This document shows positions 45,961-47,688 of a stretch of DNA of 64,000 bases, piece after piece. Positions within the stretch are counted from its first letter, which is position 1, and every line of letters starts with the position of its first letter. The position numbers and the translations under genes are program-made. Origin of the DNA: Bradyrhizobium zhanjiangense (lineage in GTDB: Bacteria; Pseudomonadota; Alphaproteobacteria; Rhizobiales; Xanthobacteraceae); NCBI RefSeq assembly GCF_004114935.1, contig NZ_CP022221.1, forward strand, positions 1,819,001 through 1,883,000, in the 5' to 3' direction. Under the pieces are notes generated by a model. That model was not told where the DNA came from, searched no databases, and saw only the letters and a list, made by a program, of their open reading frames with translations.

Positions 45961-46278
45961 ATGACCGACCCCGAAACACCCTCGACCGCCCAGGGGCCCG
46001 TCACCATTTCGACCTCCAGCTCGGAACGGGCGCCGATCATCTATTTCGACGGTGCCTCCTGCTTCGGCCACCACAACGGCGCGATCCAGATCGAGCTCGC
46101 CGCAAACCTGCTGATGCCGGTCGGTGCCGCCGTCAGGGTCGACGTGGTCCAGACCGCGCACTTACGTTGCAGCGTCGCGGCCGCGCTGGCGCTGCGCGAA
46201 GCACTCGACAAGGCGCTGGCGATGTACAAGCAGGGCCAGCAGCAGCCGGCGGAGGACATCCCGGCGGTGAAGAATTGA
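45961..46278 (+). CDS. Small hypothetical protein (DUF3467-like pattern)
   Basis: A 105-residue soluble protein. After a polar, disordered N-terminus it reads PIIYFDGASCFGHHNGAIQI and ELAANLLMPVGAAVRVDVVQ, ending in a helix SVAAALALREALDKALAMYK. The beta-sheet plus terminal helix resembles the small DUF3467 family, but the match is by eye only. A role is unknown. It is a monocistronic gene. Confidence 0.6.
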   Translation: MTDPETPSTAQGPVTISTSSSERAPIIYFDGASCFGHHNGAIQIELAANLLMPVGAAVRVDVVQTAHLRCSVAAALALREALDKALAMYKQGQQQPAEDIPAVKN

Positions 46279-46461
46279 GATCGCAATTGACAGCGATTTA
46301 TCTTTGCGCCACCTTCAGCGTAGGTTGATACGACCTGCCGGTTGCACCCTCCGTGGAATGGTGAACGTATCGAGCCTTCTCGGCCTCCCCTTTGCCCGAG
46401 CGTCCGGGTCAGCAACGCAACCGCCTGATATATCTGGATCGCTCATGCAGAGGACGAACCG

Positions 46462-47688
46462 ATGCGCGATTTTCGCGATGCCAAGGCTATGGCGCAGACC
46501 CTGCGCGAAACCCTGACTACCAAGGCCGTCACCATCAGTCACAGCGAAAGCCTCGAACTGGTATCGAGGATGCTGGGCGTTGCAGACTGGAATACGTTGT
46601 CGGCAATGCTCCAGACCGGGCGTCGCGACACGCTCGTGCCGATCGCAAGGCCCATCAGCTCGACTGCGGTCTATCCGGCGGTCCCGTTGCGCGATTTCGT
46701 GCCGTTTCCGGGCGCAACCTTTCCGTTGTTCGTCGGCCGCGAGAACACCGTGCTCGCGCTCAACCATGCGTTCGAGGGCGAGCGCGAGATGGTCTGCGCG
46801 ATCCAGCGCGATGCGACCGTCGATGAGCCGCAATTTGCCGACCTCTGTGAGATCGGCGTGCTGGTTCAATTGGTCGAACTCGAACGGCTCCAGGACGGAT
46901 CGATCAGGGTCCTGACGCGTGTCCTCCGCCGCGTCGCGCTGCGCAGCTTCGCTGCGCAATCGAGCGGTTATCGGTCCGAGGCATCCGAATTGCCCGAAGG
47001 GGCGCCCGTCGATTCGCCCGAACTGATCCGCCGGGCCATCCAGCGTTTCGAGGATTACGCAGCCACCCACGGCTTGCTGGTGCCTGATATCTGGTTGTTC
47101 TTCGATCAGACGCACGACGTCGGCCGCATAGCGGACACGATGGCGATGCGCATGAAGCTGCCGATCAAGGACAAGTACGAGCTGCTGGCCCTGCTCGATC
47201 CCGTGAAGCGCCTGGAGAAGATCGACGGGTTGCTGGACGTGTCGTCTCGCCCATTTGGCGCGGCCTATGCTGCGACGCGACGCCGAGCGCTGGCCCTCGC
47301 CGATCAGCGCCGCCATCAGTTCGCAACGCTGGAGCACCTGTTGCTGGCGTTGACCGAAGACGGTGATGCCGCACCTATCTTGCAGGCCTGCAACGCCGAT
47401 CTCGGCGTGCTCAGGCAAAACCTCACAGACTATCTCGACAAGGAGCTCGCACACACTGTGATCGAGACGGGAACAGCGGCGCCAACCGTTGCGTTCCGGC
47501 GCGTCGACCGCCGCGCCGCACTGCATGCGCAGGAGGTCGGCAATCCTGCCGTGACGGGCACCAATGCGCTCGTCGCCCTCTTTCCGGAGACACGAAGCCC
47601 AGCGGCGCGCTTGCTCGCCGAGCAGGGCGTATCGCGTTGGCGCGTGGACAAGGCCATTGTGCGAAACGCTGGCGAGGACAAGCGCTAG
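46462..47688 (+). CDS. ATPase-free protein joining Lon N-domain and ClpA-type N-domain
   Basis: A 408-residue protein with three recognisable parts. Residues 1-53 (MRDFRDAKAMAQTLRETL, LELVSRMLGVADWNTLSAML) match a small N-terminal domain that I recall from alphaproteobacterial proteins annotated as glyoxalase-related. Residues 72-265 are a LON substrate-binding domain (VPLRDFVPFPGATFPLFVGR, MKLPIKDKYELLALLDPVKR). Residues 270-405 are two Clp repeats (QFATLEHLLLALTEDGDAAP and FRRVDRRAALHAQEVGNPAV) as in the ClpA N-domain. No AAA+ module, Walker motif or protease site is present. It could be a substrate adaptor or decoy linking Lon/ClpS/ClpAP-type pathways. Confidence 0.8.
   Translation: MRDFRDAKAMAQTLRETLTTKAVTISHSESLELVSRMLGVADWNTLSAMLQTGRRDTLVPIARPISSTAVYPAVPLRDFVPFPGATFPLFVGRENTVLALNHAFEGEREMVCAIQRDATVDEPQFADLCEIGVLVQLVELERLQDGSIRVLTRVLRRVALRSFAAQSSGYRSEASELPEGAPVDSPELIRRAIQRFEDYAATHGLLVPDIWLFFDQTHDVGRIADTMAMRMKLPIKDKYELLALLDPVKRLEKIDGLLDVSSRPFGAAYAATRRRALALADQRRHQFATLEHLLLALTEDGDAAPILQACNADLGVLRQNLTDYLDKELAHTVIETGTAAPTVAFRRVDRRAALHAQEVGNPAVTGTNALVALFPETRSPAARLLAEQGVSRWRVDKAIVRNAGEDKR

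Follow-up and report, generated by a model that had tools for sequence, protein, structure and literature searches.

The window analysed here, 64,000 nucleotides (nt) of the Bradyrhizobium zhanjiangense contig NZ_CP022221.1, contains a gene for a protein of 408 amino acids (aa) in which a small N-terminal module of ~55 aa (the N-module) is joined to the N-domains of Lon and ClpA (Lon-N and ClpA-N). The gene is preceded by a leader that is a structured cis-regulatory RNA with covariation support. The three-domain gene represents a conserved family and not a fragment. Its N-module is a leader-linked cassette: N-module and leader RNA are the shared features of the family, and the pairing of Lon and ClpA parts is not its defining one. 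We tentatively favour, with slightly less than even confidence, the explanation that the protein, which lacks a motor and would be made under RNA control, serves as a decoy or sponge for ligands of Lon and ClpA. It would work like mycobacterial ClpC2 but stand outside the ClpC2 family. Coordinates are collected in Table 1.

The roughly 140 nt upstream of the gene are non-coding and about as conserved as the N-module, even between different genomic sites. In distant relatives, the leader is more conserved than the rest of the gene beyond the N-module. The structure was assessed in two alignments. The first (A7) holds 40 leaders from eight architectures, taken upstream of N-module genes with low mutual likeness and mostly with a GATAC-like word (in the VOC group also GTATC), a choice that favours helix P1. 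The second (A9) comprises the 94 matches that the covariance model R1 gave in 96 selected sources at E≤5e-5. It was fitted to the nested pairs of R1 and therefore favours these; the covariance models and the fitted alignment do not contain the pseudoknot. In the 40 leaders, a 38-pair structure was paired in 85.8% of cells, compared with 81.5% after shuffling and 32–45% when slid, and two-sided changes were found at 23 pairs (shuffled, 15.9). In the 94 leaders, 86.0% of cells were paired (shuffled, 69.4%) and the covariation was 0.478 compared with 0.192, a value that 0 of 500 shuffles reached; slid versions gave 0.07–0.13. Pairs with two-sided changes numbered 31 (shuffled, 28.4), and 28 of the 500 shuffles attained this count of 31. 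The window leader itself folds with a minimum free energy (MFE) of −60.1 kcal/mol (z −2.92), and 0 of 200 shuffles were as low.

Among the 94 leaders, helix P1 was paired in 96.8% of cells with two-sided changes at all 6 pairs, and P2 in 97.2% with no two-sided change. The pseudoknot strands were fully complementary in 93 of the 94 leaders and in 100% of cells of the 40 A7 rows. Their commonest versions are GCTCGC/GCGAGC (36), GCTTGC/GCAAGC (23), GCCTGC/GCAGGC (11), GGTTGC/GCAACC (7), GCCCGC/GCGGGC (5) and GTCCGC/GCGGAC (3). In the hairpin over the Shine-Dalgarno sequence, the outer helix was paired in 79.7% of cells and the inner helices in 83.3% and 52.8%. This 7-bp outer helix is also present in the MFE fold of the window leader, and in the RNAalifold structure CCTTTGC is likewise the partner of the Shine-Dalgarno strand, GCARAGG. 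A search of Rfam 15, including its riboswitch and ROSE families, left the window leader unmatched apart from one chance hit (E 4.5). At ten other loci no Rfam match to the leader was found; there were two Brucella small RNA hits, both in L286 and both 5′ of the leader. In this locus, a sub-threshold match to Brucella CI27 (RF02600; 39.8 bits, E 1.3e-5) at positions 39–205 lies just upstream of the leader of an N-module ClpA-N gene.

To follow the RNA across genomes, we used genus, order and phylum samples of GTDB species drawn evenly; scans of more than 40 genomes lose weak matches, and the E-values of R1 and of the second model, R2, are rough. R1 gave 70 matches in 59 of 117 genus genomes at E≤0.001. 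In 67 cases the match ends where an N-module gene starts, and the remaining three (G404, G437 and G433), which have no gene, look like leader remnants in their alignments. Taking the scan samples as nested, every N-module match (E≤1e-12) in the 59 RNA-bearing genomes has the RNA. The window genome contains a single match to the RNA models, at the window gene. R2 found 68 matches in 54 of 199 order genomes, 55 of them at an N-module gene (52 by position; L390, L391 and L393 by reading). A MATE transporter gene follows 11 of the 68: directly in nine (L379–L383, L385–L387 and L389; PF01554 E 1.7e-27 or better each) and after about 140–240 nt in L392 and L388, where single long open reading frames (ORFs) are 47% identical to the L380 protein (tblastn). 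When trimmed to 420 aa, two of these transporters scored 143.3 and 125.5 bits against TIGR00797 (NCBIfam), under its cut-off of 147.4. An N-module gene lies about 1.4 kb beyond the MATE gene in 5 of the 11, and none was among the matches listed for the other MATE loci. Two of the 68 matches stay unassigned, namely the one in G582 and L384, where neither an N-module nor a MATE match was found. Among 100 phylum genomes the RNA was present in 8, all within the class, and in 0 of 74 genomes outside it; the class match in G183 (L394) is also followed by a MATE gene. At E≤1e-3, R1 recognised 78 of 92 fetched loci, some of which had been used to build it, and 17 of 27 PF20066-type loci of the class.

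This near one-to-one linkage over many C-terminal domains (67/70 and 55/68) would be expected if the N-module bound its own leader and repressed translation, with the C-terminal mimic as a sensor whose occupancy by a degron, ClpS or a toxin releases the RNA. Such an autogenous regulator would be an RNA-level counterpart of ClpC2. The leader, conserved about like the N-module and above the rest of the gene, and the small helical module with its invariant K8 and R15 fit this alternative as well, and we regard it as possible although somewhat unlikely. The paired Shine-Dalgarno strand could also belong to an RNA thermometer under heat-shock type control, with the protein as a holdase-like stress adaptor; rhizobia use ROSE thermometers. 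This is improbable given that the window leader has no ROSE or other Rfam match and that MATE pumps stand behind the same RNA. In addition, covariation has kept a long-range pseudoknot, and these are more typical of ligand- or protein-binding RNAs.

The distribution of the N-module was examined with a profile built on residues 1–60 (A2). At E≤1e-12 it matched 90 of 195 genomes of the genus, and at E≤1e-4 it matched 142 of 397 genomes of the order. The 90 genus genomes contain 105 N-module genes, whose further domains are DUF3471-like (28), ClpA-N with Lon-N (27), Lon-N (24), the ClpX zinc-binding domain (ZBD; 14), ClpA-N (11) or none recognised (1). Docking domains of Lon, ClpA or ClpX are thus present on 76 of the 105. 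These calls rest on small local hidden Markov models: two sequences, of which one scores above the Pfam cut-off and the other under it, underlie the DUF3471-like model, and a single sequence underlies the pentapeptide model. Of the 27 genes with both domains, 11 were taken over directly from the scan with A1, and the Lon-N genes include at least one truncated copy, that of G467. Protein reading, together with Pfam on ten proteins, gave as fusion partners Lon-N, ClpA-N, the ClpX zinc finger (zf-C4_ClpX, E 2.6e-19), VOC/Glyoxalase_7, DUF3471-like domains, pentapeptide repeats, an unnamed domain of about 180 aa and the PF20066 beta domain. K8, M10, A11, L14, R15, E32, G39, W43, N44, L46 and A48 are invariant in 16 fusions, and in G464 the Lon-N, ZBD and ClpA-N versions stand side by side. 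Searches with the ZBD and ClpA-N types gave 3462 and 3397 matches at E≤0.001, totals that include proteins sharing one part alone; in each case 119 of the best 120 homologues contain both domains, and PF08364 is added in 4 of the best 120 of the ClpA-N type. The preliminary description of the window protein had suggested, as one of several possibilities, that substrates are shared between Lon and ClpAP. This cannot explain the family, because the same N-module is found on Lon-N, ClpA-N or ClpX-ZBD alone and on non-protease domains.

Several observations on single fusion types were made along the way. The ZBD type (L155:1501–2175, L167 and L168) has a conserved C-terminal tail and no ATPase. 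ClpA-N without Lon-N is encoded, for example, at L130:1730–2383 (−). The domain of about 180 aa, fused to the N-module in L165, L170, L180 and others, carries the motifs FDN... and GFFLxGxG, and gave no significant Pfam match in the two proteins tested. Three viral contigs (L395–L397) show a weak N-module-like match with 44% identity over 41 residues.

From the letters alone, the preliminary description had read the window protein as a Lon N-domain and a ClpA-type N-domain behind a small third domain, with no AAA+ or protease module, and this reading was borne out. Both named domains were found by Pfam (LON_substr_bdg and Clp_N), NCBIfam and Foldseek. The third, which had been left unnamed, is the N-part of PF20066: the window protein matches positions 8–58 of 143 alone, and the C-terminal beta domain of the profile is unmatched. 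Pfam places Clp_N on two stretches (the best at residues 276–325, E 1.6e-15), and two ClpA-type repeats are present. NCBIfam aligns residues 71–256 with Lon 11–198 and residues 275–401 with ClpA 12–140, at scores far under the full-length cut-offs. Sequence matches in the PDB lead from residues 70–259 to E. coli Lon and from 275–399 to E. coli ClpA; ClpA chains match the Clp_N part at E 1e-21, ClpC-type chains at E about 0.007 and weaker. The AlphaFold2 model has a mean predicted local distance difference test score (pLDDT) of 86 with a weak linker at 54–66; the N-module (pLDDT 77) is predicted to form three helices (4–20, 27–37 and 43–57). With this model, Foldseek matched Lon-N at TMt up to 0.92. 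No AAA+ or peptidase family was found in the protein by Pfam, and the ORF stops just past Clp_N. The AAA+ and Ser-Lys protease modules of Lon were detected in it by neither Pfam nor NCBIfam. The two AAA+ modules of ClpA were not found by Pfam in the ORF, and no AAA+ family of any kind was found in the 7 neighbouring reading frames tested, which answers the earlier proviso that a missing ATPase might be encoded nearby. By frame length, the genome has machinery of its own, namely ClpA, ClpB, two Lon, one short Lon-N protein and two ClpS.

A search with the window protein gave 1461 matches at E≤0.001. Among the best 120, one of which is the query, LON and Clp_N are both present in all 119 other homologues and the N-part in 117; all species named among them belong to Bradyrhizobium. 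The three-domain length is retained in 24 aligned homologues with a mean column identity of 81%. In genome contigs, 296 stretches encode a relative, and 80 of them were kept. L010–L045 (36 loci) are of the three-domain type by length, except for the truncated L028 and L043. L046–L089 (44 loci) have the length of N-module plus Lon-N, about 259–282 aa, and come from Bradyrhizobium, Mesorhizobium, Rhizobium, Agrobacterium, Phyllobacterium and other Hyphomicrobiales. A1 was matched at E≤1e-60 by 32 of the 195 genus genomes. The gene occupies one site in the clade of the window and different sites in other clades. Partial matches were also seen in 17 plasmid records of Agrobacterium, Rhizobium and Phyllobacterium, 14 of them predicted to be conjugative; the 12 listed of these 17 cover the N-module and Lon-N stretch. 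A chance fusion or a decaying gene without function might account for the patchy distribution, the two truncated copies and the three leader matches without a gene. However, length and invariant residues are kept in many species at several genomic sites, and the leader covaries. This conservation largely refutes decay, barring relaxed selection on one domain, and makes it highly improbable.

To see whether the docking surfaces are retained, residues known from E. coli were compared. Rows are partly redundant, with 148 distinct proteins among 177 three-domain rows, 132 among 133 ClpA-N-only rows and 54 among 85 two-domain rows. In ClpA, the contacts to ClpS are E23, E28, T81 and R86 (PMC12493166). 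In 176 three-domain rows, E28 is kept in 176, R86 in 174 (2 gaps) and T81 in 168 (6 S, 2 gaps), and position 23 is Q in 165, R in 10 and K in 1. Position 23 is E in 8 of 9 order ClpA rows and Q in the window genome's own ClpA. ClpA-N-only rows show E23 in 107 of 133, E28 in 133, T81 in 131 and R86 in 133. Lon has the hydrophobic degron patches hpI (L16, V20, V21, P28, L29 and L91) and hpII (PMC8087443). In the 177 three-domain rows, L16 is hydrophobic in 177, V20 is V in 176, P28 is P in 177, L29 is L or M in 177 and L91 is L in 171; V21 is P in all 177. At the level of sequence, conservation of the ClpS contacts and of hpI is compatible with binding but is not proof of it. The kept contact residues and the hydrophobic hpI are likewise consistent with the adaptor, ClpS-competitor and scaffold roles proposed in the preliminary description.

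In the decoy explanation, CCTTTGC would be paired with the Shine-Dalgarno strand at rest and translation would be low. A signal, which might be a ligand, stress or the N-module itself, would free this strand and the protein would accumulate. Lon-N and ClpA-N would then bind what usually docks on Lon and ClpA, namely exposed hydrophobic degrons and ClpS or ClpA-N-binding toxins. Bound ligand would not be unfolded, so that the protein acts as a sponge and the real proteases are spared or rebalanced. We infer translational control by the Shine-Dalgarno helix, the decoy action and a xenobiotic or proteotoxic-stress signal; the MATE pumps behind the same RNA suggest that the stress is of a xenobiotic or antibiotic-like kind. 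The simplest action would be competition, because motor-less receiver domains can bind and hold but not unfold. Alternatively, the protein might be an adaptor or scaffold whose N-module binds a client or partner and whose Lon-N and ClpA-N bring it to the proteases, through Lon-N lobes or ClpS, and promote degradation, as in the case of cereblon, which is among the LON-fold Foldseek matches. The constant layout of N-module plus protease docking domain across Lon, ClpA and ClpX agrees with this, whereas an N-module on VOC, DUF3471-like and pentapeptide domains is a misfit for a recruiter of protease clients. Isolated Lon-N and ClpA-N are receivers of adaptors and degrons and are not known to bind their own rings, and competition therefore fits better than delivery; ClpX-ZBD, which dimerises, is a possible exception. 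We consider an adaptor unlikely.

Several points weigh against the RNA-controlled decoy. Across the family, the Shine-Dalgarno helix varies more than P1 and the pseudoknot do. On the Lon side, part of hpII has been lost (150 of the 177 three-domain rows have E in place of L81, and P84 is mostly replaced), and L91 of hpI is replaced in two-domain relatives. The ClpA contact residues, four positions as compared here, may be kept for reasons of fold. The gene is accessory, as its architecture accounts for 27 of the 105 N-module genes of the genus and the N-module is carried by 90 of 195 genomes. Many members have DUF3471-like, VOC or other non-protease domains, so that the common theme may be a different one. 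Finally, MATE genes were linked to the RNA at the level of order and class but not in the 117 genus genomes.

A bolder version, which we think rather unlikely, is that one pseudoknotted and so far undescribed alphaproteobacterial class of leader RNA commands a modular set of defences, made up of MATE pumps and of exchangeable ligand traps on the constant N-module, with decoys of Lon, ClpA and ClpX soaking up toxins or phage factors aimed at AAA+ proteases, and that the N-module or a drug-like ligand switches the RNA. If true, these bacteria would have a switchable supply of sham docking sites for three of their main AAA+ proteases, serving protease control or toxin resistance. To our knowledge, this is otherwise known only from ClpC2. 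The leader RNA offers a handle, since knowing its signal would tell what many proteins are for. The annotations that these now bear are 'LON peptidase substrate-binding domain-containing', 'ClpX C4-type zinc finger' and 'glyoxalase superfamily' protein.

The likely promoter of the window gene was assigned by comparison with relatives, because the best automated pick in the window is another pair, TTGAGA/TATCTT. The 60 nt on the 5′ side of the leader include a TTGAC box in 66 of the 94 cases, compared with 4.5% of letter shuffles, and transcription therefore probably starts near the 5′ end of the RNA. Neighbouring genes encode a thiamine pyrophosphate enzyme, a thioesterase, a 105-aa protein, an amidase and Tex; the convergent amidase and then Tex lie on the 3′ side. 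The gene of the 105-aa protein (45961–46278, +), which has no Pfam match, is directly upstream and syntenic with the window gene in its clade.

Table 1. Features of the leader and gene, in window positions
Feature	Position	Strand	Details
Likely sigma70-type promoter	46287..46315	+	TTGACA 46287-46292, 17 nt, CACCTT 46310-46315; read from sequence
Structured leader RNA	46321..46461	+	R1 match 46321-46479, 146.2 bits, 18 nt into gene; the leader is one of R1's own 40 rows
Leader domain 1	46327..46371	+	P1 GATACG 46327-46332/CGTATC 46366-46371; P2 ACC 46333-46335/GGT 46360-46362
Pseudoknot strand 1	46340..46345	+	GGTTGC
Pseudoknot strand 2	46417..46422	+	GCAACC
Shine-Dalgarno-covering hairpin	46389..46453	+	CCTTTGC 46389-46395/GCAGAGG 46447-46453; inner GAGCG/CGCTC, TCAG/CTGA
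Whole gene	46462..47688	+	408 aa, ATG start; no AAA+/protease module
N-module (N-part of PF20066 Glyoxalase_8)	46462..46632	+	Pfam E 4e-12, residues 4-54
Lon N-domain	46672..47235	+	Residues 71-258; Pfam LON_substr_bdg E 1.9e-36; Foldseek 9jwa TMt 0.90
ClpA N-domain	47278..47670	+	Residues about 273-403; Pfam, NCBIfam ClpA, Foldseek 1r6o_B TMt 0.89

Parts of the system have counterparts elsewhere. Known riboswitches and ROSE thermometers likewise combine leader structure with Shine-Dalgarno pairing and differ by the absent Rfam 15 match. PF20066 Glyoxalase_8 and PF19581 Glyoxalase_7 proteins have the N-module in common (the first ~58 of 143 PF20066 positions) and often the leader RNA, but they carry a C-terminal beta or VOC domain and no protease docking domain. 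Stand-alone Lon-N proteins (BPP1347, PDB 1zbo; L009 of the same genome, frame 252 aa) also present Lon-N without AAA+ or protease, but lack N-module and ClpA-N; we know of no function for them. Cereblon uses a LON-fold domain outside a protease, where it serves a ubiquitin ligase through DDB1; it is eukaryotic and not the same system. Plant ClpT has a Clp_N-like domain without a motor and attaches to the plastid ClpP core. The closest likeness is to mycobacterial ClpC2, a motor-less protein with an N-terminal four-helix dimerisation domain (residues 4–72) and a mimic of the ClpC N-domain (PDB 8ADA, 8AD9). It is described as binding cyclomarin, which lifts the repression that ClpC2 exerts on its own promoter, and as protecting ClpC1 (PMC10030653). 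The preliminary description knew of no protein with such a role; within open-licence PMC this is nearly right, except for ClpC2. Both proteins are small and motor-less with an extra N-terminal helical domain and a Clp ATPase N-domain mimic, and ClpC2 is described as a competitor for a ligand of the genuine Clp N-domain that also regulates its own production (PMC10030653). Profile and fold searches of the PDB with the N-module had no ClpC2 chain (8ADA) among the matches listed. ClpC2 is of the ClpC type, has one docking domain and is controlled at a DNA operator. The window protein is not ClpC2, because it is ClpA-type, carries Lon-N in addition and is tied to a leader RNA, and it has siblings with ClpX-ZBD.
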